A stretch of DNA of 64,000 nt from Erythrobacter insulae (GTDB taxonomy: Bacteria; Pseudomonadota; Alphaproteobacteria; Sphingomonadales; Sphingomonadaceae): the NCBI RefSeq assembly GCF_007004095.1, contig NZ_VHJK01000001.1, positions 686,501 to 750,500 of the forward strand, in the 5' to 3' direction. Shown piece by piece: positions 7,400 through 30,985 of this stretch (its first letter is position 1; the number at the start of each line of letters is the position of its first letter). The translations under genes were made by a program, and so were the position numbers. The notes under the pieces are model-generated. The model saw only the letters and a list, made by a program, of their open reading frames with translations. It did no database searches and was not told the DNA's origin.

Positions 7400-7403
7400 G
7401 ATC

Positions 7404-12142: not shown

Positions 12143-12188
12143 AAGTAAAGTACGGCACGACGTGCGCGTATCACAGGAGGGGAAATTA

Positions 12189-14603
12189 ATGGGCATTCTC
12201 AAGAGCACTGCGTTTGCAGCATGTGTCAGTCTCATGGCGCTATCAGCCAGCTATTCCGGCACCGCTATGGCACAAGAATCGCTGACAGATACGGTGCAGC
12301 GGCCGGTAGCTGAAGCGCTCTACTGGGATGCCTCCGCCCCTACCGAACAACGCGTCGAAGATCTGATCGCCCGGATGACGCTGGAAGAAAAGATCGGACA
12401 GATGGTCACCATCTGGAACGACAAGCCGAAAATACAGGATGAGGACAATTTTTTCGCGCCCGAAAAAGCGTCAGAACTCTATCCCGACGGACTAGGCTTT
12501 TTTGCGCGTCCATCTGACCTGAAGGGTCCGGGAAGCCCGCGCGTCAACACACCGCGAAGCATCGAAGAATCGATCCGTTACGTCAATGCGCTGCAGCGCT
12601 GGTCACGGGAGCAGACAAGATTGGGCATCCCGGTTCTAACACACGAAGAATCATTGCATGGCCTGGCTGCCCTGAACGCCACCAGCTTCCCACAATCTAT
12701 CGCTTTGGCTTCGACTTGGGATCCCGAACTGGTGCGCAGCATCAATGACTACATCGCCAGCGAGGTTCGCGCGCGCGGTGTGCATCAGGTGCTATCGCCG
12801 GTGGTTGATATTGCGCGCGACCCGCGCTGGGGCCGTATCGAAGAGACATTCGGTGAAGACCCCTATCTGGTTGGGGAGATGGGCGTAGCAGCTGTCGAAG
12901 GCTTGCGCGGAGTGGGGAAGGACCCCAAGCTTAAACCGGGTCAGGTCATGCCAACCCTGAAGCATATGACCGGGCATGGTCAGCCCGAAAGCGGCACCAA
13001 TATCGGCCCTGCACAGATTTCCGAACGAACATTGCGTGAAATGTTCTTCCCGCCTTTTCAGCAGGTGGTCGAGCGGACCGCCATCGATGCGGTCATGGCG
13101 AGCTATAACGAGATCGACGGCATCCCAAGTCATTCCAGTTCGTGGCTGCTTCAAGACATCCTGCGTGGTGAATGGAAATTCGATGGTACCGTAGTGTCGG
13201 ATTATTACGCGATTGAAGAAATGGTGTCGCGGCACAATATCGCTGCTGACGTGCCAGCCGCAGCCAAGATCGCTTTGGAAGCAGGCGTCGATGTAGATTT
13301 GCCCAGCGGAATATCTTTCTCGACGCTCACTGATCAGGTGAAAGACGGTTCGGTTTCGATGGCAGCGATCGACACTGCTGTCCGCCGCATCCTGACGATG
13401 AAATTCAACGCGGGTCTGTTTGAAGATCCCTTCGTGGATGATGCTGCACCTGCGCTTCGTTCTAATGGCACCGAAGGGCGCGCCCTCGCTCGCCGCGCGG
13501 CTGAAAAATCACTCATTCTGCTCAAGAATGACGGAGCATTGCCTCTGGCGCTACCCGATACGGCGGCTGACACACCGACAATCGCCGTCATCGGCCCGAA
13601 TGCTGATGTGGCGCGCTTGGGCGGTTACTATGGTATTCCTCGCGACACTGTGACGCCGCTAGAGGGCATTCGTAATCTGGTCGGCAACCGGGCAAACATC
13701 GTGCATTCTCCAGGTGTGGTCATCACCGAAGATGATGACTGGTGGGAAGATAAAGTCACTCTTGGCGATCCGGCTGAGAACCGGAAGATGATTGCAGAGG
13801 CTGTCAGAACGGCTGAGAACGCGGACACCATCGTTTTGTTTATCGGAGACACCGAACAAACAAGCCGCGAGGGTTGGGCCGAGGCGCATCTGGGCGACAG
13901 AACAAGCCTTGATCTGGTTGGAGAGCAGAATGAGCTCTTCGCCGCACTGAAGGAACTGGGCAAACCAATCGTTACGGTCCTGATTAATGGCCGCCCACCA
14001 AGCTATCTACAGGTGGCCGAACAATCCGACGCAATTTTGGAAGCGTGGTACGCGGGCGAGCAACAAGGCAATGCTATTGCTGACGCATTGTTCGGACAGG
14101 TAAACCCCGGTGGCAAACTACCGGTTACTGTCGCCCGGAACGCCGGACAATTGCCATTTTTCTACAATCACAAACCGAGCGCACGGCGCGGATATCTTTT
14201 CGATGACGCCGCGCCGCTGTATCCGTTTGGCTTCGGCCTTTCTTATACCAGCTTTGACATGGCTGCGCCGACCTTATCCTCGGCAAGCATTGCGAGCGGT
14301 GAAGATGTGACAGTGCGTGTTCGCGTTACCAATACCGGCAACATGACCGGCGATGAGGTCGTCCAAGTATATCTTCGCGACATGGTCAGCTCAGTTACGC
14401 GCCCGGTCAAGGAGTTGGTCGGGTTTGAACGCGTCACGCTTGACGCTGGTGCCTCGACGACCGTGAGTGTGACTATTGATGCTGACAGCTTTGCATTTTG
14501 GAACCGCGATATGGAGCGCGTCGTCGAACCTGGTGAATTCAGCGTCATGGTGGGGCCCAATTCGCAGGACCTCCAAACGATTACGCTGACCATCTCGCAA
14601 TAG
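12189..14603 (+). CDS. GH3 beta-xylosidase/beta-glucosidase, exported
   Basis: An 804-residue family 3 glycosidase. The ATG at 12189 is chosen because AGGAGG lies 8 bp upstream. A Sec signal peptide follows, with likely cleavage after TAMA. The GH3 catalytic domain carries SPVVDIARDPRWGR and EETFGEDPYL, the KHMTGHGQ loop and the nucleophile Asp338 in VVSDY. The second GH3 domain (LLKNDGALPL, GEQQGNAIADALFG) and a C-terminal fibronectin-III-like domain (YPFGFGLSYTSF onward) complete the standard architecture. It is immediately followed by the GH10 xylanase and controlled by a XylR operator, so removal of xylose from xylo-oligosaccharides in the periplasm is the likely role; beta-glucosidase activity is the alternative. 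Confidence 0.9.
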   Translation: MGILKSTAFAACVSLMALSASYSGTAMAQESLTDTVQRPVAEALYWDASAPTEQRVEDLIARMTLEEKIGQMVTIWNDKPKIQDEDNFFAPEKASELYPDGLGFFARPSDLKGPGSPRVNTPRSIEESIRYVNALQRWSREQTRLGIPVLTHEESLHGLAALNATSFPQSIALASTWDPELVRSINDYIASEVRARGVHQVLSPVVDIARDPRWGRIEETFGEDPYLVGEMGVAAVEGLRGVGKDPKLKPGQVMPTLKHMTGHGQPESGTNIGPAQISERTLREMFFPPFQQVVERTAIDAVMASYNEIDGIPSHSSSWLLQDILRGEWKFDGTVVSDYYAIEEMVSRHNIAADVPAAAKIALEAGVDVDLPSGISFSTLTDQVKDGSVSMAAIDTAVRRILTMKFNAGLFEDPFVDDAAPALRSNGTEGRALARRAAEKSLILLKNDGALPLALPDTAADTPTIAVIGPNADVARLGGYYGIPRDTVTPLEGIRNLVGNRANIVHSPGVVITEDDDWWEDKVTLGDPAENRKMIAEAVRTAENADTIVLFIGDTEQTSREGWAEAHLGDRTSLDLVGEQNELFAALKELGKPIVTVLINGRPPSYLQVAEQSDAILEAWYAGEQQGNAIADALFGQVNPGGKLPVTVARNAGQLPFFYNHKPSARRGYLFDDAAPLYPFGFGLSYTSFDMAAPTLSSASIASGEDVTVRVRVTNTGNMTGDEVVQVYLRDMVSSVTRPVKELVGFERVTLDAGASTTVSVTIDADSFAFWNRDMERVVEPGEFSVMVGPNSQDLQTITLTISQ

Positions 14604-14604
14604 G

Positions 14605-15795
14605 GTGCCGCCGGTGACTGTCGATATCTCTCATAATTGCTCCCGCCGCACGGCTCTCGCCGGTTTGGCGGCGATGCCCGCTGCGGCATGCACACCAATT
14701 CTGACCGCGCCAGTTGCACCGCCAGCCGTGACTGCAACCGGCAGCCTTGATTTCTTAGCGAGGAGCGGCAGAAGGCGCTTCGGCACGGCTATTGCTCACG
14801 GAGTAGCAAACGAAAATTCAGGATCCGTTGCTAACCGGAGATACGCCGCTTTGGTGAAGTCTGAATGCGGTTTGGTCGTCCCTGAAAATGCCATGAAGTG
14901 GCAATCTATCCGTCCTTCGCCAGATCGGTATGATTTTTCGCAAATGGACACAATCGTCCGCTGGGCAAAGGCGAATGATATAGATGTGCGCGGACATGTA
15001 CTGCTGTGGCACCGACCAGAATGGTTTCCAGATTGGCTCAACACTTATGATTTCGGGACCTCACCAGCTAGCGAAGCGGGACGAATACTAAGCGACCATA
15101 TCCGCACAGTGACCGAACGCTACGCTGACACGATCGTAAGCCATGATGTAGTCAACGAGGCGATAGATCATGCGACCAACCGGCCGATCGAAACCAGTCT
15201 CAGCCGCGCGATGGGTAGTCCCGAAGCGGTAATGGACCTGGCCTTCCACAGCGCACGGGAGGGTCTGCCAAACGCCCAGCTGGTCTATAATGACTATATG
15301 AGTTGGGAGCCTGCCCACGCCGATCACATGGCCGCGGTTCTGCGCCTTCTCGAAGGGTTCAAGAAACGCGGTACGCCGGTCGATGCGCTGGGGATCCAGA
15401 GCCATATTGAAATTATGGGAGTCGATCCCGCCACCGGAGTCGGTCCCTACCGCGAACGCGAATGGCGCAAGTTCCTCGATGAGGTAACGGGCATGGGATA
15501 TCGCCTTCTGATCACTGAATTCGACGTCAAGGATAAGGCATTGCCCGCCGATATCGCTACGCGCGACCGCTTGGTCGCTGAGTACACGCGTCGCTATTTC
15601 GATGTGATGATGGATTATGACTCGATGCTGGACGATATTCTCGTGTGGGGCATGGTCGATCAATACAATTGGCTACAGTACTTTGATCCGTCCAAGAGGG
15701 CCGACGGGCTAGAAGTGCGCGGTACGCCCTATAGTAGCGACTATCGCCCAAAGCCTATGCGTGATGTTTTGGCGCAGGTTCTGAGCCGCAGCTGA
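14605..15795 (+). CDS. GH10 endo-1,4-beta-xylanase, predicted Tat lipoprotein
   Basis: A 396-residue family 10 xylanase. Catalytic residues are the acid/base Glu185 in DVVNEA and the nucleophile Glu305 in LLITEFD; WHRPEW and GIQSHIEI are further family segments. It begins with GTG one base after the GH3 stop, so translation is coupled; a second GTG at 14614 is possible. The N-terminus has a twin-arginine motif (SRRTAL, residues 13-18), a short hydrophobic stretch and AAAC with Cys29, which suggests Tat export followed by lipid anchoring. It should cut xylan or long xylo-oligosaccharides at the cell surface or in the periplasm, feeding the GH3 enzyme. A strong terminator follows. Confidence 0.92.
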   Translation: MPPVTVDISHNCSRRTALAGLAAMPAAACTPILTAPVAPPAVTATGSLDFLARSGRRRFGTAIAHGVANENSGSVANRRYAALVKSECGLVVPENAMKWQSIRPSPDRYDFSQMDTIVRWAKANDIDVRGHVLLWHRPEWFPDWLNTYDFGTSPASEAGRILSDHIRTVTERYADTIVSHDVVNEAIDHATNRPIETSLSRAMGSPEAVMDLAFHSAREGLPNAQLVYNDYMSWEPAHADHMAAVLRLLEGFKKRGTPVDALGIQSHIEIMGVDPATGVGPYREREWRKFLDEVTGMGYRLLITEFDVKDKALPADIATRDRLVAEYTRRYFDVMMDYDSMLDDILVWGMVDQYNWLQYFDPSKRADGLEVRGTPYSSDYRPKPMRDVLAQVLSRS

Positions 15796-15887: not shown

Positions 15888-18800
15888 TTAGAACTTACCC
15901 CTTAAAATGAACGAGAACCTTCGGTCATTCGTAAAGAATGATCGCGGCGCCAAGACATTCGCATCGCCGGTATAGGCCTGCAACGTCTCCGTCGTTTCAT
16001 TGAGCAAGTTGACGCCCTGCACGCCGATCTGAACATCATCGGTAACTCTGAAGAAGATCGAACCATCCAATTGCCCGGTCTCTTCATTGAAAATCGAATA
16101 GAACGGGAAGATGACGTCAGACGCTGTTAGCAAGAAGCGCGAGCGCCAATTATACGCGGCTCGGAGACTTACCGGCCCCTTCTCGTAGAACACCGTCGCG
16201 TTGACGTTGTGTTTCGATAGCTGCTCGAGTGGCAGGTTTCCGCCCGGCGCAACGGTCGAGTTATTAGCCAAATCTGGCCCATTCAAGAACGTGTTCGGCA
16301 GACCGTCACTATCGATATAGGTATAGTTCGCTTGCACACCCAATCCGTCAAGCGGTCCAGGCAGGAAGTCGTAAGTTTGCTGATATGCAACTTCAAAGCC
16401 TTTGATCTTGCCTCCGCCTTGGAAGTTGGCAGGTCCGCGTACCAATACAGTTTGCGTAACGCCGTTATTGGTGATGTCCTGATTGACCAAATCCTGGAAG
16501 AAGAAGTTGTCTATGTCTTTGTAGAATGCGTTGAGCGTCAACGAACCGACTGGCGCAAAATACCATTCGAGCGACACGTCATAGGTCCACGCTGTGGCCG
16601 GTGCCAGATCCGCGTTACCGCCTTGCGCAGTCAGATTTCCTGCCTGATCCAAAGTGATATCGAGGAAGTTGCGCAGCAACGCATTGTCTGGCCGCGTCAA
16701 CACATTCGAGGCCGCTAAACGCAAGATCAGATCATCTGTCAGCCCGAACCGCATATTGATGCTCGGGAGGAAATAATCGAATGTTTCGCCGCGGATGCTA
16801 TTTGTACCCGCTGATCCATTTCCGGCGAATGCCCGAAGGTTGTTATAGGCTGCTTCGCCCTGCAAACACAGCGGTTCGGTGCTTGGCACCGGCCCGTTTG
16901 GTCCCTGCGCTGTACAGCGGACCGTAAATGGATCGGCAATACCTAATTGTTGAGCGCTTGGCGCGCTGATATTGCCGAATGATCGCGTATCCAGATTCAC
17001 ATAGCGAACCCCGATATTGCCGGCAAAGCGAACATCGCCCAGCAGGTCATCGGAGCCGAACTCCAACATCGCATAGGCCGCAGTATCACGTTGTTTCAGA
17101 CGTTGAATGTCGCTTGGAATGAATGGCGAACCATCAAGTGCGCCCGGACGTTGAGCCAGCGGAACCCAACCAGCGGGTCCACCACGGTTTTGGAATTCTT
17201 GGTTTACACCCAAGGCGAAATTGGTCGCCTCGTCATAGCCGCTGATCAGATCACCCGAGTAATACAGCGCCGCCGGAGGGGCCGCCGTGTCACCGCGGAA
17301 GAAGTTGTCAAAGTCGTAGATTTCGTAGTTGCTTGGATCGGTATCGCCGAAACGGACAACGTCACCATTGGCACCCCAGACTTCGCTCAACACACCCCAG
17401 TTGTAGGTTGTGTAACGGACCGTCGTGTCACGTTCGGAAAAGCGCGCTCCGACTTTCGCTTTACGAATGAAGGAATCGTAACCAAATTCGTACTCTACAT
17501 CAGCTTGGAAGGCGAACTGATCGCCTTCGCTGTCCTCGATGTGATCCATTGCGGCGCGCCAAAACTGAACGCGTGGGTCGACGAAGTATTCGGCATCCGT
17601 GAGACCATCTAGGTTTGCGTTTGGCCCACCCTGCCAAGAATAGCTGGTGAAGTTTGGAATATGAGGAACTCCGACGGGCAAATCACCGGTGAGATCCAGC
17701 TCAGAATCCGCAAACGTCGAGCCAAAGACAGAGAAATCGAGGTTTTCTTTGCGTGATGTCGCGTATTGCGCATCGAGCTCGATCGTCAATTTATCGGTCA
17801 GCTCAGTTCGCAAATTAAGCGAATAGTCTTCGTTGGTTGTTTCGTCTTCAACTTGCCGGCGGGACAAGACCTGTTGCAGGCCACCGATTGATGTGAACGC
17901 CGCGCCGTTGCCCGGATCACCGCGCCAACCGTTATTTGGGCTGGTAATATACCCCGATTGGAACAGGCCTGTGTCGTCATAGACGTAGTTTTCGAAGCCG
18001 CCGACGGGACACTCAGCCCGCGCGGTACCGCCCGGGCCATTCTCGTTCTGCAAGCATCCGATCGGATAAGTGTTATATTCCGCAAGATCGGGGCCGGTTT
18101 CAAAAGTATGCTCACCCCAGCTGTTGGTAGTGTGTGAACGAATGAACTCGGCGGTTACAACTGTACGCTCATCAATTGATTCAAATTGCGCAGCGACCGA
18201 GAAACCATCGCGCTTACGGTCAAACTCCTGCGACCGGAATTGCGGACCGAGTGGAGCGAAGCGCAGGTCTGCGAGATCGGCAAATCCGTCTGGTCCGCCA
18301 GCGCCAAATGTTCCGCATGCCGCGCCGCCTGGTGGCAAGGTGGTCGTATCGCCATCGCCGGGCAGAGGGTTCCGGCAAGTCAATGCACCGCCGGTGTTGG
18401 CAGCAGCAACCAGCGTGTTGTCGCGGGCTTGGAAGTTTGTGACCTGAATACCGTCGGCACGGTTACGGATTTGGGAGAATGTACCACTGACCAGAATGCC
18501 AAAGGTACCAATTTCGGTATCCCAGGTGTTGCTGATGAGGCCGGAGAATGTTGGCGACCATTCCTTTGCGAAATCGCCGTAATTGCCCTCTGCACTGAAT
18601 GCGACATTGAAGCCTGGATCATCAAGCGATTTGCGCGTTACAAGATTGACCGTACCGGAAATTCCGCCTTCGATCATATCAGCAGTAGAGTTTTTGTTGA
18701 TGATCACGGAGCCCAGAAGCTCGGGCGGGACATCGGCAAAGTTCAACGCCTGCCCACCGACACCAGCAGAAAATGCGGTACGGCCGTTAAATTCGGAGCG

Positions 18801-19235
18801 GACGTAGTTCAGTCCGCGAATCGTGACGCCCGACCCCTCGACCGAGAAGTGATCGGGATCGTTGGAGCCGGCAAAACGGTTGATCGCGACACCGGGGACA
18901 CGCTGCAAAGCCTCTGTGACAGAACGATCAGCGAGTGCGCCGATATCGTCCGCTGTAATCGCGTCCACGACCGTGTTTGCGTCTCGTTTGATGTTCTGCG
19001 CAGAAATCAAAGATGCGCGGATACCGCTTACGACGATTACATTGCCTTCGGCTGCATCAGCCTCGACTTCCGTTTCCGGGTCGACAGGCTCCTGCGCCGT
19101 TTCTTGCGCCAGCACATTAGACGACAGCAATAGGCTACCAATAGCCAACATTGATGCACCGGAACGCAGAAGCGCGCCTTTACCAAGTATTGCGCGCTCG
19201 GCCGCCGACAACGCCATTTGATCAAAAGTTTTCAC
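15888..19235 (-). CDS. TonB-dependent receptor for xylan-derived oligosaccharides
   Basis: A 1115-residue outer-membrane receptor of the large Caulobacter/sphingomonad class. It starts at GTG (19235) with a GGAGGG site 8 bp upstream. An extended N-terminus leads into a signal peptide ending ANVLAQ-like (SSNVLAQE), then a TonB-box-like stretch (NVIVVSGIRASL) and a plug domain (ITADDIGALADRSVTEALQRVPGV). The barrel ends in FSFILRGKF with the terminal Phe typical of outer-membrane proteins. A perfect XylR operator lies 18 bp upstream of the start codon. Divergent from it is an operon of halogenase-like and cupin genes. Xylo-oligosaccharide import is inferred from the regulon; the family is certain. 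Confidence 0.92.
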   Translation of the reverse strand: MKTFDQMALSAAERAILGKGALLRSGASMLAIGSLLLSSNVLAQETAQEPVDPETEVEADAAEGNVIVVSGIRASLISAQNIKRDANTVVDAITADDIGALADRSVTEALQRVPGVAINRFAGSNDPDHFSVEGSGVTIRGLNYVRSEFNGRTAFSAGVGGQALNFADVPPELLGSVIINKNSTADMIEGGISGTVNLVTRKSLDDPGFNVAFSAEGNYGDFAKEWSPTFSGLISNTWDTEIGTFGILVSGTFSQIRNRADGIQVTNFQARDNTLVAAANTGGALTCRNPLPGDGDTTTLPPGGAACGTFGAGGPDGFADLADLRFAPLGPQFRSQEFDRKRDGFSVAAQFESIDERTVVTAEFIRSHTTNSWGEHTFETGPDLAEYNTYPIGCLQNENGPGGTARAECPVGGFENYVYDDTGLFQSGYITSPNNGWRGDPGNGAAFTSIGGLQQVLSRRQVEDETTNEDYSLNLRTELTDKLTIELDAQYATSRKENLDFSVFGSTFADSELDLTGDLPVGVPHIPNFTSYSWQGGPNANLDGLTDAEYFVDPRVQFWRAAMDHIEDSEGDQFAFQADVEYEFGYDSFIRKAKVGARFSERDTTVRYTTYNWGVLSEVWGANGDVVRFGDTDPSNYEIYDFDNFFRGDTAAPPAALYYSGDLISGYDEATNFALGVNQEFQNRGGPAGWVPLAQRPGALDGSPFIPSDIQRLKQRDTAAYAMLEFGSDDLLGDVRFAGNIGVRYVNLDTRSFGNISAPSAQQLGIADPFTVRCTAQGPNGPVPSTEPLCLQGEAAYNNLRAFAGNGSAGTNSIRGETFDYFLPSINMRFGLTDDLILRLAASNVLTRPDNALLRNFLDITLDQAGNLTAQGGNADLAPATAWTYDVSLEWYFAPVGSLTLNAFYKDIDNFFFQDLVNQDITNNGVTQTVLVRGPANFQGGGKIKGFEVAYQQTYDFLPGPLDGLGVQANYTYIDSDGLPNTFLNGPDLANNSTVAPGGNLPLEQLSKHNVNATVFYEKGPVSLRAAYNWRSRFLLTASDVIFPFYSIFNEETGQLDGSIFFRVTDDVQIGVQGVNLLNETTETLQAYTGDANVLAPRSFFTNDRRFSFILRGKF

Positions 19236-19397: not shown

Positions 19398-20960
19398 ATG
19401 CAACCCGGAAATGATAGCGATATCGCGCAGATTGTTATTGTTGGGGGCGGAACGGCCGGATGGATGGCAGCCGCCGCGTTCTCGCGATATTTCGATAATG
19501 GCAGACGCACAATCACTCTGGTCGAATCAGAGCAAATTGGCACCGTGGGTGTTGGCGAGGCGACGATCCCTCCGATCGCCAATTTTAACAAAATGCTGGA
19601 TATTGCTGAAAACGATTTTCTGCGCGCAACCAACGGTACATTCAAATTGGGTATCGAGTTCGTTAATTGGGGCCAGCAGGGCGATCGGTATTTTCATCCG
19701 TTCGGCGGTTACGGCCAAGACTTGCACGGTATCGCTTTCCATCAATTATATTTGAGAGAAAAGGCCCTTGCACAGGCAGGGTTGGCGGCAGGGCGCGAAA
19801 CCGTAGGTGATATTGCGGGCTACTCCATGAGCTCAATGGCCGCCCGCCACGGGAAATTCGCCCGGGTAAAGCCTGGCTCCCAGTCATTGGCCGGGCAGAT
19901 AGGGTACGCCTATCACTTTGACGCTAGCCTATATGCGAAATTCTTGAGGAGCCTCGCCGAGAAGCAGGGCACGATCCGCCGCGAAGGGCAAATTTCAGCT
20001 GTGCACCGCGATAGCGAGACCGGTGATGTCACATCGGTCGAATTGGACAATGGTGAAAAGATCGAAGGTGAGCTTTTCATCGACTGCTCAGGCTTCCGCG
20101 GGCTTTTGATCGAAGGGGCTCTAGAGACCGGTTACGACAATTGGAGCCATTGGCTGCCTGTTGACCGCGCAATCGCCCTTCCCTGCGCGAACCCTGCAAC
20201 GCTTGATCCATACACACGCTCAACCGCGCATGGCGCAGGCTGGCAATGGCGCATCCCTCTCCAGCATCGGACAGGCAACGGGCATGTCTATTGCAGCGAT
20301 TACATGGAGGCGGACGAAGCCGAGACGATCCTGCGGGCCAATATCGAAGGGGAACCGCTCGGTGATGCGCGGCATTTGCGCTTTACAACGGGCATGCGAA
20401 GCAAGGCGTGGAACCATAATGTAGTCGCTTTGGGCCTGGCTTCGGGCTTCATCGAGCCGCTCGAGTCTACCAGTATTCATTTGGTGCAGAACGGTATCGC
20501 CCGCTTATTCGCGCTGTTTCCTGATAAGAAAATCAGTCCGGTTGAACGTGATGAATATAACAGGGGAATGCACGAACTGTACGAAGATGTGCGCGACTTT
20601 GTGATTTTGCATTATAAAGCAACCCAGCGCGATGATACAGAATTCTGGCGATATGTGCGTGACATGGACGTGCCGGAAACTCTGGCAAAAAAGATGGAGC
20701 TATGGAAACTGCATGGCCGTGTCTTCCGCGAGAATGCAGAGCTTTTCACAATGCCCAGCTGGATCGCCGTGATGTTGGGACAAAACATCTGGCCCGACAA
20801 ATATGACCCGATGGCCGATACCCTTGATGATGCAAAAGTGGCGGGCGCGATGAAACAGATGCGTGAGGCATATCGCAACACCGCATTACAAATGCCGGCC
20901 CAGGTCGATTTTCTGAAGCAATCGAATTCGTGGGCGGCAGCGCAGGATATGTCAGGATGA
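19398..20960 (+). CDS. Tryptophan-halogenase-like flavoprotein (copy 1)
   Basis: A 520-residue protein of the flavin-dependent tryptophan halogenase family. The FAD motif GGGTAGWM is at residues 17-24, the catalytic Lys aligned with PrnA Lys79 is Lys83 (TFKLGIEF), the halogenase signature WxWxIP appears as GWQWRIP, and the Glu of the EPLEST motif is kept. All parts needed for HOCl/HOBr-type chemistry therefore seem present. It is divergent from the TonB receptor, and its stop overlaps the start of the next paralogue by 4 bp. A flavin reductase partner is not seen in the window. Homologues from Xanthomonas brominate free indole, but the natural substrate beside glycan-uptake genes is unknown. 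Confidence 0.88.
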   Translation: MQPGNDSDIAQIVIVGGGTAGWMAAAAFSRYFDNGRRTITLVESEQIGTVGVGEATIPPIANFNKMLDIAENDFLRATNGTFKLGIEFVNWGQQGDRYFHPFGGYGQDLHGIAFHQLYLREKALAQAGLAAGRETVGDIAGYSMSSMAARHGKFARVKPGSQSLAGQIGYAYHFDASLYAKFLRSLAEKQGTIRREGQISAVHRDSETGDVTSVELDNGEKIEGELFIDCSGFRGLLIEGALETGYDNWSHWLPVDRAIALPCANPATLDPYTRSTAHGAGWQWRIPLQHRTGNGHVYCSDYMEADEAETILRANIEGEPLGDARHLRFTTGMRSKAWNHNVVALGLASGFIEPLESTSIHLVQNGIARLFALFPDKKISPVERDEYNRGMHELYEDVRDFVILHYKATQRDDTEFWRYVRDMDVPETLAKKMELWKLHGRVFRENAELFTMPSWIAVMLGQNIWPDKYDPMADTLDDAKVAGAMKQMREAYRNTALQMPAQVDFLKQSNSWAAAQDMSG

Positions 20961-22489
20961 CCGCTGCGAAAACTGGCAAGCCCATTCAATCAATTACAAT
21001 CGTTGGAGGCGGTACAGCTGGTTGGATGACAGCGGCGGCGCTGTCGCGGCTGCTTTCGGGAATCCCGGGGCTTTCCATCAAACTGATCGAAAGCGAAGCG
21101 ATTGGAACGGTTGGCGTCGGTGAGGCTACCATTCCCCAGATCAATTCATTCAATACATTGCTGGGTATTAATGAGCACGAATTCGTTCGTGAAACGCACG
21201 CTACTTACAAATTGGGAATCGAATTCGTTGACTGGACCCGGCTGGGCCACTCCTACGTCCATCCGTTCGGCTCATTCGGACTGGATATGTATGGGATCGA
21301 ATTCCACCATTACTGGCATCGCGGCTTGGCAGCCGGAGATTCCTCGGGACTGAACGATTATTCGATTTCCGGCATGGCTGGAAAATTGGATAAGTTCATG
21401 CATCCCCAGCATAACAATCCGAAATCGGCTCTATCCAAACTCGGATATGCGTTCCAATTTGATGCCGGGCTCTACGCCAAATATTTGCGCCGGATGGCAG
21501 AAACGGCGGGTGTCGAACGTATCGAAGGCAAAATCGTTCACGTCGCACAGCATAGCGACACGGGTTTCGTTACACACGTAAAGCTTGACGATGAAACCGA
21601 GATAGGCGGAGAGCTGTTCATTGATTGCACAGGGTTTCGCTCGCTGCTTCTTGGCGAAGTACTCGGTGTAGGCTTTGAGGATTGGAGCAAATGGCTCCCT
21701 TGTGATCGGGCTGTGGCAATTCCGTGTTCTCTTGGCGGAAAGAATGAGGCGTTAACACGGTCCACTGCCCGGCCTGCGGGATGGCAATGGCGCATTCCGC
21801 TACAGCACAGACTGGGCAACGGGCATGTCTACTCATCCGCCCATATGAGCCAGGACGAGGCGACTGACCTGCTTGTAGCCAATTTGGATGGCGCGCCATT
21901 GGCTGATCCGAATCACCTGCGCTTCACAGCGGGTTACAGGCATAAGGCGTGGGACAAGAACGTGGTCGCTCTCGGCCTGTCAGCAGGCTTTCTTGAACCG
22001 CTGGAATCGACCACGATCCACATGGTCCAGACAGGTATCGCGCGTCTCATGACGTTTTTTCCAACGACCGATTTCAGCGCACCAGAAATCGCGCATTTCA
22101 ACAAGCAGAACGTGCAGGATTACGTTGATATACGCGACTTCCTCTTACTGCATTACACCGCAACAGAGCGCGATGATTCCGAATTCTGGAACTATTGCCG
22201 CAATCTCGAACCGCCTTCAGGGTTGGCTGACAAATTGGAAATGTTTCGTTCATCTGGCCGAATAATCCGTGAGCATAACGAGCTATTCACTGAGGCTAGC
22301 TGGCTGGCAGTGATGACGGGCCAGGGGATCAAGCCAGGCGGATGGAACACTGCGAACAGTGTGATTGACGATGCCGAAACGCTGAAACGCTTGGCGCATA
22401 TTCGGCACGTTGTTTCCAGCACTGTCCAGCAAATGCCGTCTCAAGCAGAATTCCTGGCGGCGAACGGTAGCGCAATCGCAGCGCGGTAA
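20957..22489 (+). CDS. Tryptophan-halogenase-like flavoprotein (copy 2)
   Basis: A 510-residue paralogue of the preceding gene. ATG at 20957 overlaps the upstream stop codon (ATGA), so translation is coupled. FAD motif GGGTAGWM at residues 17-24, catalytic Lys85 in TYKLGIEF, GWQWRIP signature and FLEPLESTTIH are intact. The stop codon is directly followed, without a gap, by the ATG of the cupin_8 gene. The tight packing suggests that the two flavoproteins and the cupin protein are made in fixed proportion and may act on one substrate; this is inference. Confidence 0.88.
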   Translation: MTAAKTGKPIQSITIVGGGTAGWMTAAALSRLLSGIPGLSIKLIESEAIGTVGVGEATIPQINSFNTLLGINEHEFVRETHATYKLGIEFVDWTRLGHSYVHPFGSFGLDMYGIEFHHYWHRGLAAGDSSGLNDYSISGMAGKLDKFMHPQHNNPKSALSKLGYAFQFDAGLYAKYLRRMAETAGVERIEGKIVHVAQHSDTGFVTHVKLDDETEIGGELFIDCTGFRSLLLGEVLGVGFEDWSKWLPCDRAVAIPCSLGGKNEALTRSTARPAGWQWRIPLQHRLGNGHVYSSAHMSQDEATDLLVANLDGAPLADPNHLRFTAGYRHKAWDKNVVALGLSAGFLEPLESTTIHMVQTGIARLMTFFPTTDFSAPEIAHFNKQNVQDYVDIRDFLLLHYTATERDDSEFWNYCRNLEPPSGLADKLEMFRSSGRIIREHNELFTEASWLAVMTGQGIKPGGWNTANSVIDDAETLKRLAHIRHVVSSTVQQMPSQAEFLAANGSAIAAR

Positions 22490-23500
22490 ATGAGCAATCC
22501 TATGCCGCCCCAGCCAGTCGCGGAACACGCGATCTCTTCAAGCAAAGCTTTCGAGGACATAAGACGAAGCGGTACGCCAGCCGTCATTCGCGGTCTGGCA
22601 AGTCATTGGCCTAGCGTACAAGCAGCAGTCGATAGCGACCAGGCATTTGCCGACCACGTAACGCAGAATGCCAGCCCCCAACCGATCAATGCAATCGTTG
22701 CCAGCCATGATAAGCAAGGTCGTTTTTTCTATGACGAAGATTTGACGAAGTTCAATTTTGTCAGTGGACGTGGCGCATTTACGGACTTTGTGAACGACCT
22801 GATGCGACTTCGCGACGACCCGCGCCCGCCTTCGGTGGCTGTTCAATCAACACCGGTGGACAGTATTATTGCCGGTTTCAGTCAGCAAAACAGGCTAGAC
22901 ATACTGGCACATGTAGAACCGCGGATCTGGCTGGGTAACGCCATTCGGGTAGCTCCGCATTACGATGTGAAAGAGAATGTCGCAGTCTGTGTCGCAGGAC
23001 AGCGACGTTTCACCCTGTTTCCTCCTGAACAAACGCCCAATCTCTATCCGGGTCCTTTTGAGAAAACCCCTGCGGGCACACCTGTCAGCATGGTTGATCA
23101 GCAGAGCCCCGATCTCGACAAATATCCGCGCTATTCGAAAGCATGGCCGCATGCGCTGCAGACCACTCTGGAACCGGGCGATGCAATCTATATTCCCTAT
23201 TGCTGGTGGCATGGGGTTGAATCGCTTTCCCCTGTCAGTTGCCTGATCAATTATTGGTGGAATGACGCAAACCCCGCGCTCGCCGGTCCGTATGATGCAC
23301 TGTTACATGCCTTGGCGGCGTTCAGGCATCTGCCGCCAGAGCAGCGCCGCGTTTGGCAGATGATGTTGAACCATTACGTTTTCGAAGAAAATGGCGATCC
23401 AGCGGCGCATTTGCCGGATCATGCCAAAGGAATTCTAGGCCCTGCCAGTCCAGAATTGATAGCCCAAATGCGCCAAATGCTGCGCGGAATTATCAAATAG
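22490..23500 (+). CDS. Cupin_8 (JmjC-like) Fe(II)/2-oxoglutarate oxygenase-type protein
   Basis: A 336-residue paralogue of the protein at 2104-3114. The metal triad is His157-x-Asp159 (PHYD) and His241 (WWHG), with RIWLGN, GQRRFTLFPPEQ and GDAIYIP as shared segments. No signal peptide. It starts on the base after the stop of halogenase-like copy 2 and ends the operon; the next gene is convergent. Proposed role: a cytoplasmic Fe(II)/2-oxoglutarate oxygenase that works with the adjacent flavoproteins, on a protein or small-molecule substrate. Only the fold and the metal site are supported by sequence. Confidence 0.86.
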   Translation: MSNPMPPQPVAEHAISSSKAFEDIRRSGTPAVIRGLASHWPSVQAAVDSDQAFADHVTQNASPQPINAIVASHDKQGRFFYDEDLTKFNFVSGRGAFTDFVNDLMRLRDDPRPPSVAVQSTPVDSIIAGFSQQNRLDILAHVEPRIWLGNAIRVAPHYDVKENVAVCVAGQRRFTLFPPEQTPNLYPGPFEKTPAGTPVSMVDQQSPDLDKYPRYSKAWPHALQTTLEPGDAIYIPYCWWHGVESLSPVSCLINYWWNDANPALAGPYDALLHALAAFRHLPPEQRRVWQMMLNHYVFEENGDPAAHLPDHAKGILGPASPELIAQMRQMLRGIIK

Positions 23501-23533
23501 GCAGCTCACAGAGCGACCACTGTTTCGGAGCGC

Positions 23534-25030
23534 CTAACGCGGCTGGTTGCTCTGCAAAAACCGTCCGAGCCATTCACCGTAAGGCGGCGCGGCATGAAGA
23601 GCCGCTTGCGCCTTTGCTTCAAATGCCGAGCGAGACTGGTGGGCTGCCCCGCTGCCCTCTGCCGATGCCAGCGGGGTCAACCCGCCGCCAATGCCAAGAG
23701 CGGCCAGCAATGCGGATAATTCCTGATTTGCGAATGGCAATTCTTCTGCAAAGGGGATTCGGCCACGGCGGGATGACTGATCCAACAAGCGTTCTAAATG
23801 AGCCGATTGTTTGCGCGCGCCGAACCGTTTGACAGCCGCCGGCGCGGCATAGTGAAGGCCCAATACGTCTCGCACGCCGGCAGCCATCAAGCCAGCCCGG
23901 CGATTATATTCGGCGCGTTCCCGTGGATCGATGACTTGGCCCGGCAGCATCTCTAGCAAAAGTTCCAATTGCCGGTGCGCCAAATCGAGATTGAGAAAGC
24001 CAAGCGGCTCAAACTGGGCCGTAGCATCGCCAAGCGCCGCAACATTACCGACCCATGGCTCGCGAACCGCACCAGGATTGAGGGATACGCTATCAGCAGG
24101 TGGCTGACCAAGCATCTCGATAATCTGCTGATCTGAAACGCCGTCTGGAAGCGCCAGCATCAACTGCAATGCGTCCCTACCAGCCAATTCATTCAACCAG
24201 CCATATTGCGGCAGTGAAACACGATCTTCCAAAGACAGTACCGGCTTCACGGGTTGCGCAAATGCAAGTTGGCGAATGGGCAGATATTCTCGCCAATCGT
24301 CGCGTTTTATAGGCGCGGTACCTGACAGGAGCATGGCCGACGGGCCGGTACAATCGACAAAGAAATCAGCCTCAATCGCACCCGTACCGTCGATTGTCAG
24401 AGCAGAAAGCCCACCCTGTCCATCCGGCACCGTGCCAGAGATCTCTCCCGAAACATGGCGAACACCTGCAGCACTGGCCATTTCAATAATGACATCACGA
24501 TAAGCGGTCGGGTTCCAGCGAAGCCCATAATCAATTTCGCGCAGCGGCGTTGGCGGTTCGGCGGGTAAGATCGCGAAACGCCCTCTGCCCGATAATACTT
24601 CCGCCACCGATCCGGCGAACTGCGCATTCGACTGGCCTTCGGTCCCGCTTCTTGATCCGCCACCCCATTCCTGCGCGAAACGAGTCTTCAAAGACGCATC
24701 ATTCGACAGCCCGTAAGGCATGGCGCCATGCTGCAAAGTTCCAGCGCTATCCTGACCGCCCCATCCGATGTAGCGCAGAACCAGCCGGTGGCAGCCACCA
24801 GCGCGCAGCAATAACACCGCTTCCTGTAATCCGAGCCGGTCATGAAACCGATTGGTAAAAGGCAGCGCAGTGGGCGAACGGTCAGCCAGCGCGCCATTAT
24901 CGAACGGCGTGCCGATGATGATGACTTCCGCAAACGGAAGCGCTTGTTTGATAGCCAAAGCCGCCAACGATCCTAGCTGCCCGTCTCCTGCCACCACGAT
25001 ACGTTTCAATGGCGCGCGGGGAACGCTCAT
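23534..25030 (-). CDS. Degenerate halogenase-like flavoprotein, catalytic residues lost
   Basis: A 498-residue protein that aligns along its length with the three intact halogenase-like paralogues but has changed at the key sites. GGGTAGWM has become GDGQLGSL (the basic GxGxxG is kept). The catalytic-Lys segment YKLGI reads HRLVL, putting Arg82 in place of Lys. The EPLEST motif reads EPLGFL, replacing the catalytic Glu with Gly. The WxWxIP signature is missing. The frame is uninterrupted and its start overlaps the stop of copy 3 by 4 bp, so it is likely expressed and may be a pseudoenzyme, scaffold or FAD-binding partner of copy 3. Lineage is clear; function unknown. Confidence 0.8.
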   Translation of the reverse strand: MSVPRAPLKRIVVAGDGQLGSLAALAIKQALPFAEVIIIGTPFDNGALADRSPTALPFTNRFHDRLGLQEAVLLLRAGGCHRLVLRYIGWGGQDSAGTLQHGAMPYGLSNDASLKTRFAQEWGGGSRSGTEGQSNAQFAGSVAEVLSGRGRFAILPAEPPTPLREIDYGLRWNPTAYRDVIIEMASAAGVRHVSGEISGTVPDGQGGLSALTIDGTGAIEADFFVDCTGPSAMLLSGTAPIKRDDWREYLPIRQLAFAQPVKPVLSLEDRVSLPQYGWLNELAGRDALQLMLALPDGVSDQQIIEMLGQPPADSVSLNPGAVREPWVGNVAALGDATAQFEPLGFLNLDLAHRQLELLLEMLPGQVIDPRERAEYNRRAGLMAAGVRDVLGLHYAAPAAVKRFGARKQSAHLERLLDQSSRRGRIPFAEELPFANQELSALLAALGIGGGLTPLASAEGSGAAHQSRSAFEAKAQAALHAAPPYGEWLGRFLQSNQPR

Positions 25031-26556
25031 AGTGGATCTGCCATGCGCGCGGCCTGCTGATTCAGATAGTCAGTATGACCTGGCATTCCGACGACAATTT
25101 CACCAATCGCCTTCTGCAATTGTGTCAGCGCGCCCGCGACCTGTTCCGGCTTAGGCAAAGCCGCACGCGGATCGTGGTGCTGCGGCAAAACACCTTGCCC
25201 CAGATATACCGCGATCCAGCTGGCATCGTAAAACAGGCCATCGGAATATTTCTCTATCCGTCCGGCATCGCGCCACAGCTCCATTTTCCCCGCCAGGCTG
25301 TCCGGCAATTCCATCGTCCGGACATGGTTCCAGAATTCGGAATCGTCACGCGTTGTCGCGTTATAATGGAGGATCAAGAAATCGCGGACGCGGTCATATT
25401 CCATATCGACGAGCCGGTTGAATTCATCACGGTCGCGCGGGTCGATCTGCCGCCCGCTTGGGAACAGTTCTATCAGATAGGTAATCGCCATCTGCGCCAG
25501 ATAGATCGACGTCGATTCCAATGGTTCCAAGAACCCGCTGGCCAAGCCTACACCGATGACATTGTGGCTCCAGCTTTTCTTGCGCCTGCCCGGCCGGAAT
25601 CGCAGAACTCTAGGGTCCGCCAGCTGTGTTCCCTCAGCCACTTTCGCGATTGTGTTGCACGCTTCATCTTCTGAAATGAAACTGCTGGCAAAAACATAAC
25701 CATTGCCGATCCGGTGTTGCAAAGGAATGCGCCAGCGCCAGCCAGCCGGCATTGCAGTTGCCGTCGTATAGGGCGCAATTTCATCGGACGTGTGGGAACA
25801 TGGCATGGCTGCGGCACGGTCACAGGGTAACCAGTGAGTCCAATCCTCCCATTCTTCATCCAACGCATCGCCGAGCAAAAGCGACCGGAAACCGGAGCAA
25901 TCAACGAATAGATCGCCTTCAATCCGCTCGCCAGATTCCATAATCAGCGCCGACACATCCCCTGTCTCGCTATCACGCTGTACTTCGGTAACGCGCCCTT
26001 CAGTACGATCGACGCCATTGGCCATTCCGAAATCGCGCATGAAGGGTCCAAAAAGTGTGGCGTCGAATTGGTAGGCGTATCCATATGACGAAGCGAGGCT
26101 GGTATCCTGTGCCGGCGGAGTAAAACGATTTGCCTGCGCAGCTTGTACAGCCAGAGAATATTCCCCGATTGCCCCCGCCATGCCCTGCCGTTGCAGCTCC
26201 AGCCAATAGTGGTGGAAAGCGACGCCGTTCACCTCTTCCCCAAAACTGCCAAAGGGATGGATATAAGAGGTTCCGATGCTGCCGAAATCGCGGAAATCAA
26301 TGCCGAGCTTATACGTCGCATGCGTGGCTTTCATAAAAGCCGCTTCGTCGATCCCTAGCCGTTCTACAAAGCCGCGGATGTGGGGAAGCGTAGCCTCCCC
26401 TACACCGACAATGCCGATATCTTCGCTCTCGATAAGATGGACGTTAGCCAGACCGGGAAGCAATTTTGCCAAGCCTGCAGCTGTCATCCAGCCTGCGGTA
26501 CCGCCCCCAAGGACGACCACACGCATTGGCTTAGGCTTAGGCTCATCTGTCCTCAT
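25027..26556 (-). CDS. Tryptophan-halogenase-like flavoprotein (copy 3)
   Basis: A 509-residue intact member of the halogenase-like family. GGGTAGWM lies at residues 17-24, the catalytic Lys is Lys83 (TYKLGIDF), the signature reads GWRWRIP, and FLEPLESTSIY keeps the catalytic Glu. A second in-frame Met at residue 11 is an alternative start. It lies 57 bp behind the sugar porter gene on the same strand and is coupled to the degenerate paralogue, so the three probably form one transcript under the operator at 28060. Confidence 0.87.
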   Translation of the reverse strand: MRTDEPKPKPMRVVVLGGGTAGWMTAAGLAKLLPGLANVHLIESEDIGIVGVGEATLPHIRGFVERLGIDEAAFMKATHATYKLGIDFRDFGSIGTSYIHPFGSFGEEVNGVAFHHYWLELQRQGMAGAIGEYSLAVQAAQANRFTPPAQDTSLASSYGYAYQFDATLFGPFMRDFGMANGVDRTEGRVTEVQRDSETGDVSALIMESGERIEGDLFVDCSGFRSLLLGDALDEEWEDWTHWLPCDRAAAMPCSHTSDEIAPYTTATAMPAGWRWRIPLQHRIGNGYVFASSFISEDEACNTIAKVAEGTQLADPRVLRFRPGRRKKSWSHNVIGVGLASGFLEPLESTSIYLAQMAITYLIELFPSGRQIDPRDRDEFNRLVDMEYDRVRDFLILHYNATTRDDSEFWNHVRTMELPDSLAGKMELWRDAGRIEKYSDGLFYDASWIAVYLGQGVLPQHHDPRAALPKPEQVAGALTQLQKAIGEIVVGMPGHTDYLNQQAARMADPL

Positions 26557-26613: not shown

Positions 26614-28014
26614 TCACCCCTTCATGTCCTCTAGTTCAAGCCCTTTGGTTTCATGGACGAGTTTCCAAACAAACAAGACCGAGATCGCGGCACTGATTGC
26701 GTAGAATCCGTATGCGCCGGTTAGTCCAATCGATGCGAGCATGATCGGGAATGTCATGGTGATCCCGAAATTCGCAGTCCATTGTGCGAAACCGCTTACC
26801 GCCAAGCCCGATCCCCGGATCTGGTTAGGGAACATCTCACCAAGCATGACCCACATCACTGGCCCCCAGCTAAAGTTGAAGAACGCCACATAGGCATTCG
26901 CAGAAACCAGCGCGATCACACCGGCACTGTCCGACAGGACCAAAGAGCCGTCAACGATTGAACCGCTTTGAAAAGCAAATGCCATCGCCGCCAAGGTGAC
27001 CGCCATACCCACCGAACCCACCAGCAACAAAGGCTTGCGTCCGATCCGATCGATCAATGCAATTGCGGCCAAACACGCGGCAATCGAGATCGACCCGCTC
27101 AGGATATTGATTTTCAGCGCGTCGCTTTCGCTAAAGCCGACAGCTTGCCAGAGAACAGCGCCATAATAGAAAACAACATTGATACCGACCAGTTGCTGGA
27201 ACACTGCCAGCCCGATACCCGTCCATACAATTGGGCGGATTTTCCCACTGTGGCGATCAAGCAGATCCGAAAGCCTTGGCGCGTGATCAGCCGCAATCGA
27301 TGTTTTGATTTCAGCGACTTTGCGCTCCGCAAATCCGGTGCCGAACAAACGGCCCAAAACCTTCTGGGCATCCTCATTGCGCTCCTTTGCAACAAGGTAA
27401 CGCGGGCTCTCCGGGATGAAGAACAAAGCCACCAAGAAAATTGTCGCAGGGATAAGTTCCATCCAGAACATCCACCGCCATGCCTCAAACCCCATCCACA
27501 GCGCGTTGGTTGATGCACCTGCAAACTCTGCGAGCAAATAATTGGAAAGGAACGCCACCGTCAGACCGATAATAATCATGATCTGTTGCAGGCTAGACAA
27601 ACGCCCGCGCAAATGGGCAGGCGTTACTTCACTGATGTAGGCTGGTGCCAGAACGCTTGCAGCCCCGACGGCCAAGCCGCCAATAACGCGGTAGACTACG
27701 AACTCGGCAGACGAGCCAGCAATGCCCGAACCGTATGCACTTACGATAAAGAACAGCGCCGCCAATAACAGCGTGCGCTTCCGGCCAAGAATGTCCGCCA
27801 GACGCCCTGCCAAAAACGCACCAACTGCACAGCCGAGCAGCATCGAGGCAACGTTAAAACCGGTTCCAACATCGTCCGAATCAAACGCGATGCGCAGCCC
27901 ATCAACGGTGCCATTGATTACCCCGCTATCAAATCCGAACAGAAACCCGCCCAGCGTCGCCACAGCGACAATCGCCGTGATCAGCGCCATATTAGCACTT
28001 TGTTGTTGATCCAT
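26614..28014 (-). CDS. MFS sugar porter (XylE/GLUT-type), probable xylose importer
   Basis: A 466-residue inner-membrane transporter of the sugar porter family with about 12 membrane segments. Signatures: GFLFGFDSGVINGT in TM1, GRLADILGRKR in the loop after TM2, PESPRYLV after TM6, and LIDRIGRKP after TM8. The ATG at 28014 is chosen because GGGAGGGC lies just upstream; an upstream ATG at 28056 would add 14 non-conserved residues. A XylR operator lies about 46 bp before the start. It should carry D-xylose, or a disaccharide, released in the periplasm into the cell by proton symport; substrate is inferred from regulation and neighbours. Confidence 0.9.
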   Translation of the reverse strand: MDQQQSANMALITAIVAVATLGGFLFGFDSGVINGTVDGLRIAFDSDDVGTGFNVASMLLGCAVGAFLAGRLADILGRKRTLLLAALFFIVSAYGSGIAGSSAEFVVYRVIGGLAVGAASVLAPAYISEVTPAHLRGRLSSLQQIMIIIGLTVAFLSNYLLAEFAGASTNALWMGFEAWRWMFWMELIPATIFLVALFFIPESPRYLVAKERNEDAQKVLGRLFGTGFAERKVAEIKTSIAADHAPRLSDLLDRHSGKIRPIVWTGIGLAVFQQLVGINVVFYYGAVLWQAVGFSESDALKINILSGSISIAACLAAIALIDRIGRKPLLLVGSVGMAVTLAAMAFAFQSGSIVDGSLVLSDSAGVIALVSANAYVAFFNFSWGPVMWVMLGEMFPNQIRGSGLAVSGFAQWTANFGITMTFPIMLASIGLTGAYGFYAISAAISVLFVWKLVHETKGLELEDMKG

Positions 28015-28059
28015 CTCGCCCTCCCAAACGCGTCGATCATCGCCGTACGCGCCCATTTA

Positions 28060-30230: not shown

Positions 30231-30460
30231 GGGCGTGGCGTATAATCCAAGATGCTTAACAGCCCGTTCCTGCCCATTAACCGTCAGGAATTCTTACATA
30301 ACTGACAAAGCCCAGATAGGCGTTAACCGTTAACTTACGCGGTTTTACTGGGTTTTCAGCTGTTTGGCATGGCCATTGCTTAACTCTTCCCGACGGGAGC
30401 TTGCCGGTAGGTCGGCTCGTATCGGACAGAAAATGAGACCTAGACGATCGGGGAATGACA

Positions 30461-30985
30461 ATGACCAAGCTTTACAAAACTGCAGCGATTGCACTGGCAG
30501 CCGGCACGATGGCTGCTGCTGCGCCCGCATCGGCAGCAATTTTCGAATATGAAATGAATGATGGCGATATCCTTACCATCGACACCGAAGCCCAAACGGG
30601 CAGCTGGGTCGGAGATGATATCAATGTCAGCTTTAACAGCGCAGAGTTTGCCAGTTTCGAAGGCGGTGCTTCGCCGAGCTTCTCTTTCACATTGACTGAC
30701 ATGACGGGATTTCGCACCATCAACGGCGTTGATTATGATCCCACAACACAGAACGGCACAAGTTTTCACCCATGGATGATGAAAACCACTTCGACTGGTG
30801 CGATCAACCTTTGGTCATGGTGGGGCGATCCGGTGATCGCGGGCGATTATGTTCGCGGCATCGCTGATTACCGCGTCGTCGATGTTCCGGCACCTGGTAT
30901 AGTTGGACTGCTCGCTCTTGCTCTTGCAGCGCTCGGCTTTGGTCGCCGCCGCCGCAAGATCAAAGGCGCTGTTGCTGCGGCATAA
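30461..30985 (+). CDS. Secreted protein with PEP-CTERM-like sorting signal
   Basis: A 174-residue secreted protein. It has a Sec signal peptide (to about ASAAIFEYE), a beta-rich middle and a C-terminal tail of VPAPG, a hydrophobic segment of about 15 residues and the basic cluster RRRRK, the tripartite PEP-CTERM layout with Pro-Ala-Pro in place of Pro-Glu-Pro. Exosortase would cleave the tail and attach the protein at the surface; no exosortase is in the window. The ATG at 30461 is preferred to 30455 for spacing from GGGGA. The upstream region holds GTTAACCGTTAAC (30322-30334), a near-palindrome that might bind a regulator. A perfect terminator follows. Exact function unknown. Confidence 0.75.
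   Translation: MTKLYKTAAIALAAGTMAAAAPASAAIFEYEMNDGDILTIDTEAQTGSWVGDDINVSFNSAEFASFEGGASPSFSFTLTDMTGFRTINGVDYDPTTQNGTSFHPWMMKTTSTGAINLWSWWGDPVIAGDYVRGIADYRVVDVPAPGIVGLLALALAALGFGRRRRKIKGAVAAA

Follow-up and report, generated by a model that had tools for sequence, protein, structure and literature searches.

A receptor-linked set of halogenase-type genes in Erythrobacter insulae: presence of one halogenase tracks a single tryptophan of the TonB-dependent receptor

Introduction

The flavin-dependent halogenases PrnA, RebH, Thal and PyrH take free tryptophan as their substrate in pathways of secondary metabolism, the cytoplasmic flavoproteins QhpG and LodB modify tryptophan of a protein, and FIH and JMJD5 hydroxylate proteins. 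Here we describe a set of halogenase-like genes and a cupin gene that adjoin the gene for a TonB-dependent receptor (TBDR) in a xylan locus of Erythrobacter insulae, within a stretch of 64,000 nucleotides (assembly GCF_007004095.1, contig NZ_VHJK01000001.1, positions 686,501 to 750,500; hereafter the window) of a 2.99 Mb genome. The set comprises three intact genes of the PF04820 family (Hal1, Hal2 and Hal3), a divergent fourth copy (psHal) and the cupin. Hal2 comes and goes with one receptor tryptophan, Trp437, on a probable outer loop, which suggests that the enzymes modify the receptor.

PrnA, RebH, Thal and PyrH have the same fold and family as Hal1-3, with the same catalytic Lys and Glu and the same GxGxxG and WxWxIP motifs, and score about 246-293 bits against Hal1; the window copies differ in adjoining a TBDR. 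The closest solved relatives of Hal1 and Hal2 are BrvH (PDB 6frl), Xcc4156 (6y1w) and a halogenase of Pseudoalteromonas sp. L11 (9luq), at 466-498 bits, and these three are also the nearest folds to psHal (TM 0.81-0.83). In the sections of the papers cited here, BrvH and Xcc4156 have an open substrate site, a preference for bromide and no established native substrate, and can add bromine to indole or model substrates in vitro (PMC5945002, PMC7336383). BrvH shows low activity on indole and has a second halogenase gene upstream of its own (PMC5945002), and the open sites of both might accommodate larger substrates, for Xcc4156 "possibly even peptides" (PMC7336383). Those sections name no receptor, pseudo-halogenase or cupin, unlike the window locus, and the available part of PMC8269204 is free of the terms "receptor", "transporter" and "sugar". 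Carbohydrate utilization (CUT) loci with a TonB receptor, in the part of PMC1790865 cited here, bring together a TBDR, degradative enzymes and a sugar transporter, as at the window locus; "halogenase" is absent from the main text of that paper.

Results

Hal2 and receptor tryptophan 437

The window TBDR, the proposed halogenase substrate, is a TIGR01782-family protein of 1115 amino acids (aa) encoded at 15888-19235 on the minus strand (624 bits, cut-off 310). Hal2 is encoded at 20957-22489 on the plus strand (PF04820, 599.4 bits) with its catalytic residues intact; its open frame begins at a GTG at 20930 (20930-22489), and the ATG at 20957 is the likely start. Families were assigned by profile searches with Pfam and NCBIfam/TIGR models at curated cut-offs, and halogenase types from FastTree clades (98 Hal1, 95 Hal2, 82 Hal3 and 68 psHal rows).

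The discovery typing drew on 135 loci, in 104 of which a receptor frame longer than 650 aa lay no more than 2.5 kb from a halogenase. Testing receptor residues against Hal2 presence ranked Trp437 (codon 17925-17927, minus strand; SPNNGWRGDPG) first of 2,206 residue tests, the tryptophan being found in 31/33 receptors with Hal2 and 1/9 without. Forty new stretches were then added, of which nine were dropped because they held no TBDR and four because their receptor lay outside clade 1, the receptor clade of the window TBDR. Among the 27 left, 24 carried psHal, and all 24 agreed: Trp437 was present in 21/21 with Hal2 and 0/3 without. In the joint set of 65 psHal loci, from which identical TBDRs had been removed and also L058 (on the same contig as L044, G016) and L062 (receptor in two frames), Hal2 and Trp437 agreed in 63, with Trp437 present or absent in 51 and 1 loci with Hal2 and in 1 and 12 without. 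The association ranked first of 2,916 tests, 26 of them on tryptophan (Fisher p=4e-11, against 2e-7 for the next-best column, both values ignoring kinship).

Sorting the receptors by locus class gave the same picture. Trp437 was absent from all 23 receptors of loci with Hal1 only and from all 12 of loci with Hal1, Hal3 and psHal, and was present in 47/48 with Hal1, Hal2, Hal3 and psHal; multi-halogenase receptors lacking it belonged mostly to loci without Hal2. In the 13 Hal2-less loci the loop was kept with Trp replaced by Tyr in four (L065, L067, L098 and L247) and by Arg in L063, and was altered or shortened in others. A G-W context, a pattern chosen afterwards, occurred in 64/90 receptors of Hal2 loci, 8/43 of loci with other halogenases and 2/26 without any. 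This residue-level co-variation is new within the literature searched, the gene families themselves being known.

As a side observation, the records holding L065 and L072 bear the titles Arthrobacter sp. TPD3018 and Bacillus sp. 2B10 and contain Sphingomonas-like loci with TonB receptors, which points to misnamed records or mixed assemblies.

Receptor tryptophans marking halogenase linkage

Two further tryptophans of the window TBDR, Trp613 (codon 17397-17399) and Trp620 (17376-17378; both on the minus strand, in YNWGVLSEVW), mark linkage to halogenases in clade 1. Both were present in 39/39 clade-1 receptors with at least three halogenases and in 6/6 with two; with one halogenase, Trp613 was present in 28 and Trp620 in 27 of 29, and without any in 2 and 1 of 12, respectively. 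Across 74 halogenase-linked clade-1 receptors, 67 columns reached at least 95% conservation, and Trp620 was the sole column to separate these receptors from the 12 without, at thresholds chosen during exploration. A looser motif, [NTYS]W..[LIVAM][SAG]..W, was found in 72/96 receptor rows with halogenases and 0/26 without (0.3% in shuffles), a few receptors being counted twice in this comparison (e.g. L012/L139, L069/L181). In 48 further genomes of the family, the strict NWGxxSExW pattern at the DNA level occurred at six places in six genomes, with a halogenase about 2 kb away in every case, and the reversed control pattern had 0 occurrences.

A second receptor clade carries a tryptophan of its own. 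The GW tryptophan (LTDPGGWG) was found in 21/21 clade-2 receptors and in 0/6 halogenase-less sister receptors; 15 of the 21 members were typed, and 15/15 have a Hal2-type gene. The first residue contrast between receptors with and without halogenases had yielded no tryptophan column at its thresholds; it mixed the two clades, and splitting them gave the result above. Of 36 TIGR01782 receptors counted below, the contrast omits those for which locus DNA was lacking (one with and five without a halogenase).

The receptor model has a mean pLDDT of 72, with residues 433-447 below 50, and Foldseek matched it to known TonB receptors. Short strand turns were seen at 353/358, 478/483, 583/590, 728/736 and 831/836, and two long connections hold the tryptophans of interest: 381-452 contains Trp437, and 609-709 contains Trp613 and Trp620. 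In TonB receptors the long strand connections are as a rule extracellular, and on the model Trp437, Trp613 and Trp620 probably lie on extracellular loops.

Halogenase genes adjoin TonB receptors across genomes

The window genome and 14 relatives were searched (PF04820 E-values up to 1e-20, TIGR01782 up to 1e-60), and PF04820 genes were found in 10 of the 15. Of 32 such genes, 30 had a TIGR01782 TBDR no more than 10 kb away, against 1.03 expected, which bears out the statement of the sequence-only reading that such sets are known beside TonB receptors; of the two others, one lies on a contig lacking a TIGR01782 receptor and one 81 kb away. Seen from the receptors, 17 of 36 had a halogenase within 10 kb and 19 had none. 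In the 48 further genomes, coordinate comparison placed all 18 best-scoring homologues of the window TBDR within about 0.6 kb of a halogenase, and weaker homologues were mixed, some with and some without one. The window genome has five strong PF04820 genes, four at the locus and a fifth at 1.68 Mb next to another TIGR01782 receptor, besides two weak matches (19-22 bits); two of its four TIGR01782 receptors above cut-off have adjacent halogenases.

Receptor modification weighed against co-selection

The reading that we favor is that the halogenases are receptor-modifying enzymes acting on TBDR tryptophans before export, and we regard it as close to evenly balanced. It takes as observed the gene content, the residues retained and lost, the gene order, the pairing of psHal with Hal3, the adjacency to receptors and the co-variation of Hal2 with Trp437; from these we infer the chemistry, place, site and timing, and the parts played by psHal and the cupin.

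Several results weigh against it. L232 has Hal2 and NGFR in place of the tryptophan loop, L238 has GDWRG with no Hal2 detected (Hal3 and psHal were found), and Trp437 is present in just 2/7 clade-1 receptors with a single Hal2-type gene. Among six tree-independent pairs four agree, none disagrees and two do not differ (p=0.125), and tree-based sign tests are under-powered. Three new Hal2-less loci resemble earlier losses (L247 and L067, L276 and L072, L277 and L100), and the second set therefore does not test the link on independent evolutionary events. Halogenase types were taken from FastTree clades, some of them with low support (local support 95 for Hal2, 71 for Hal1, 35 for psHal and 18 for Hal3 in the joint tree), and outlying rows switch type between trees; Hal2 itself had local support of 82 and 95 in two trees, and L233, at first Hal2-positive, became Hal2-negative when retyped in the joint tree, leaving one exception fewer. 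The Hal2-Trp437 link is thus strong as a pattern, yet built on few independent events.

The other tryptophans have limits of their own. At 90% conservation three columns separate the clade-1 receptors (two Phe and one Trp) and at 85% sixteen do; in clade 2, one Glu and one Gly column separate as fully as the tryptophan. Only two changes of the NWGxLSExW motif occur on the receptor tree, and the motif may simply mark a receptor clade, so the contrasts at Trp613, Trp620 and in clade 2 cannot stand alone, and L197, a halogenase-free receptor, retains the NW..LS start of the motif. The excess of tryptophan was twofold in one comparison and only 1.34 vs 1.03% (p=0.03) with a wider control; tryptophan content is therefore not leaned on. 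No tryptophan strictly following Hal3 or psHal was found, Trp373, Trp534, Trp559 and Trp690 showing no strict rule against either. Nor did a search of open-licence literature by title and abstract start, which is not proof of absence, find a publication tying halogenases to TonB-receptor modification.

The receptor tryptophan could also be a sugar-stacking residue. On this alternative the target of the halogenases is a small molecule or some other exported protein, and the TBDR tryptophans are co-selected with them by a shared substrate niche. Tryptophan is a common carbohydrate-contacting residue, the receptor motif is clade-bound, and several Hal2-type loci lack Trp437, all of which co-selection would accommodate. 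It poorly explains, however, why a single tryptophan tops the joint test for Hal2 presence, why five Hal2-less loci have Tyr or Arg in place of Trp437 in a loop that is retained in other respects, and why a parallel tryptophan occurs in a second receptor clade. We consider co-selection possible but unlikely.

Catalytic residues and the chemistry

Hal1 (19398-20960, plus strand; 520 aa, 628.7 bits) retains K83, W282, W284 and E353, and Hal3 (25027-26556, minus strand; 602.8 bits) likewise has its catalytic residues intact. All four copies exceed the PF04820 cut-off of 21 bits, Hal1-3 at 599-629 bits and psHal at 145. Across 275 Hal1-3 rows the FAD motif (GxGxxG), Lys83, both WxWxIP tryptophans and Glu353 were kept in nearly all, and the catalytic Lys in 275/275.

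An alternative chemistry is that the enzymes strike the receptor tryptophan as monooxygenases, hydroxylating it in the manner of QhpG and LodB. The proposed mode is alike and both models touch the Hal proteins, yet the profile similarity is weak (21.5-32.2 bits): the best QhpG match reached 32.2 bits (Hal3) against an NCBIfam cut-off of 240 and the best LodB match 21.7 bits (Hal1) against 400, so that none of the proteins belongs to either family. The invariant Lys and the nearly universal WxWxIP also speak against it, as does the bromination of indole or model substrates in vitro by two of the closest solved relatives in the sections cited above, and we judge hydroxylation by such enzymes improbable.

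Sugar-gene neighbours and aromatic substituents

Neighbouring genes were scanned (70 of 202 from psHal loci and 79 of 339 from loci lacking psHal), and the 25 commonest families were tabulated, pooled over loci. The 70 from psHal loci included six GH10, four GH9, three GH1, three GH3, two GH5-type and two GH43 genes, and the 79 included nine genes of the alpha-amylase family, five for glucokinase, three GH97, three for sulfatases and two each of GH31, GH35 and GH3. Halogenases thus also occur at loci for sugars without aromatic groups, which disfavors ferulate or coumarate as a common substrate. These starch-type neighbours (alpha-amylase, GH97 and glucokinase) tell against the suggestion in the sequence-only reading that an aromatic xylan substituent is modified, when taken as the general case. 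Given them, modification of ferulate or coumarate groups imported with the oligosaccharide seems very improbable, although the enzymes are intact and GH10, GH3 and GH43 are among the psHal-locus neighbours. A search of the window genome with the tannase/feruloyl-esterase profile PF07519 gave no match, but the controls were equally silent, and the result carries no weight.

psHal is a conserved pseudo-halogenase

The fourth copy, psHal, is encoded at 23534-25030 on the minus strand (498 aa, PF04820, 144.8 bits) directly behind Hal3. In the window protein K83 is replaced by Arg and WxWxIP is lost, with E353 kept. A wider sample from 80 loci of named genomes and later fetched stretches formed one clade of 68 rows (local support 99 in one tree and 35 in a larger one, with long-branch attraction possible), in which Arg occupies position 83 in 45 rows and Lys in 1, the second WxWxIP tryptophan is present in 16, Glu353 in 47, and 0 rows match all three scanned motifs. 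psHal has a halogenase fold and, judged by these catalytic residues, reads as a protein that is not a halogenase; its AlphaFold2 model has a mean pLDDT of 86 and a TM of 0.83 to Xcc4156.

A search of 149 family genomes returned the window copy and 11 orthologues at 47-82% identity, all free of stops (the 82% orthologue is truncated by a contig end), and two further relatives at 33-35%. psHal lies directly behind a Hal3-type gene in 67/67 loci with a receptor in the stretch; an earlier count including receptor-less loci placed it directly behind another halogenase in 38/40, with a contig end in the other two. L058, left out of the receptor counts, remains among the 68 rows and 67 pairings. By record name the carriers include Sphingomonas, Maricaulis, Asticcacaulis, Aestuariibacter and Gilvimarinus. 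The ratio of nonsynonymous to synonymous substitution rates (dN/dS) between the window and G082 was 0.053 for psHal (406 codons, dS near saturation), 0.066 for the cupin and 0.011 for Hal2. The copy had been called degenerate: it is indeed divergent and has lost catalytic motifs, but its orthologues, at 46-82% identity, make up a conserved family, and it is not decaying. psHal is therefore a conserved pseudoenzyme, and its pairing with Hal3 is new within the literature searched. That it is a neutral, roleless relic on its way out is barely credible: its identity is lower than that of Hal3 (46-53% vs 75-83%, L044-L053) and Erythrobacter-type loci carry a shortened form, but the low dN/dS, the stop-free orthologues, the invariable place behind Hal3 and the confident predicted fold argue otherwise.

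The shortened forms measure about 250-360 aa; in L057, L078, L080 and L086 the protein is down to about 250 aa and keeps a fixed place between two intact halogenases. A second divergent PF04820 kind (about 250-370 bits) was seen upstream of an intact halogenase in L101, L102, L107, L118 and L137; it matches neither the scanned Lys nor the WxWxIP pattern and is unstable in trees, falling near Hal3-type genes in one and, for later-retyped loci, outside the named types.

The cupin

The cupin gene (22490-23500, plus strand) encodes a 336-aa putative 2-oxoglutarate oxygenase of Cupin_8/JmjC type (PF13621, 210.2 bits). Its best PDB matches are FIH and JMJD5 (E about 1e-17), and both the family assignment and the HxD...H ligands agree with FIH-like 2-oxoglutarate oxygenases, HxD (as HYD) and a distal His having been read by eye as the iron ligands. 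The HxD...H arrangement is common to FIH and JMJD5, from which the locus cupin differs in being bacterial and coupled to halogenases. Arg stands at the position that we take to hold the 2-oxoglutarate-binding Lys in FIH. Eleven receptor columns tie perfectly in following the adjacent cupin (13/13 vs 0/20), a tie best explained by close kinship of the carriers, so that no cupin site can be named. In L051 (8628-9629, G062) the cupin is split into two open frames of 228 and 105 aa and may be broken; the halogenase-type genes there stay open.

Locus layout and surroundings

Profile search agreed with the sequence-only reading on the positions and families of the three intact PF04820 genes, the divergent copy and the cupin between the TBDR and a sugar porter, the latter an XylE-like member of the major facilitator superfamily (26614-28056, minus strand; Sugar_tr 377.2 bits). 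The tight gene junctions reported there were also seen: the Hal1 TGA (20958-20960) overlaps the Hal2 ATG (20957-20959), Hal2 and the JmjC-like cupin said to be coupled to it meet without a gap at 22489/22490, and at 25027-25030 the stop of Hal3 overlaps the start of psHal. The order TBDR, Hal1, Hal2, cupin / psHal, Hal3, porter is conserved in 8/10 relatives (L044-L053, whole or nearly whole loci), and the coupling of Hal1, Hal2, cupin, psHal and Hal3 exceeds chance. L046 is cut at the edge of its stretch and has its second half inverted. Loci with the same gene sets in named genomes belong mostly to Sphingomonas, Erythrobacter and kin. L049 (G086) holds Hal1 and the psHal-Hal3-porter block, the receptor, Hal2 and adjacent cupin being absent from the stretch, and is perhaps a module without its own receptor.

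On the other side of the receptor lie genes for a GH10 xylanase (14605-15795, plus strand) and a GH3 glycosidase, xylosidase-like by context (12162-14603, plus strand), both assigned by family profile match and locus comparison. The adjoining stretch 5888-12018 encodes an aldehyde dehydrogenase, an SDR protein, an SMP30-like lactonase, an IlvD/EDD dehydratase and a LacI regulator, which read as a putative set for oxidative xylose use. A second Cupin_8 gene (2104-3114, plus strand; 213.7 bits) lies between putative GH3 (63-2063) and GH5 (3130-4734) genes on the same strand and has a 57-58% relative near the halogenase block of L049. A small secreted-looking protein is encoded at 30455-30985 on the plus strand, with a C-terminal stretch, VPAPGIVGLLALALAALGFGRRRR, that we take to be PEP-CTERM-like. 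Scans for promoters and terminators gave no excess over shuffles.

Discussion

A mechanism can be sketched on this basis. Hal1, Hal2, Hal3 and the cupin have no N-terminal signal peptide discernible by eye and should therefore be cytoplasmic, where the TBDR is unfolded before export; this placement, together with the open sites of BrvH and Xcc4156, led to the proposal of site-specific modification of receptor tryptophans. Hal1-3 would be cytoplasmic halogenase-type enzymes with open active sites, dependent on FADH2 and O2, modifying specific TBDR tryptophans on the unfolded receptor before Sec export, most likely by bromination or chlorination and possibly by hydroxylation. The modified residues would end up on glycan-facing extracellular loops. 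Hal2 would act on Trp437 in the NGWRG loop, and Trp613 and Trp620 (NWGxLSExW) would be core sites common to clade-1 receptors. psHal may be a catalytically dead paralogue in fixed partnership with Hal3, for instance in a heterodimer where it serves substrate binding or regulation, and the FIH-like cupin may add hydroxylation to the same receptor.

Receptor modification had also been raised by the sequence-only reading, and it gains support from the co-variation of Hal2 with Trp437 and from the tryptophans marking halogenase-linked receptors in two clades, all of which is correlative. Another secreted protein, the further target suggested there, is a possible candidate. The fuller scheme, a receptor-maturation system of cytoplasmic halogenases, partly one per site, with an obligate pseudo-halogenase partner and an FIH-like hydroxylase in several classes of Proteobacteria, we hold more tentatively, as plausible but somewhat doubtful.

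The cited sections on BrvH- and Xcc4156-type halogenases establish no native substrate for these enzymes, and a single receptor tryptophan offers a concrete, checkable candidate; Hal2 and Trp437 provide a residue-level test of the receptor-modification idea. A seemingly degenerate gene is recast as a conserved pseudoenzyme partner. If the proposal is true, bacteria of several Proteobacteria classes would possess a system that halogenates their own outer-membrane receptors after translation, with possible effects on glycan recognition and on escape from phages and bacteriocins.

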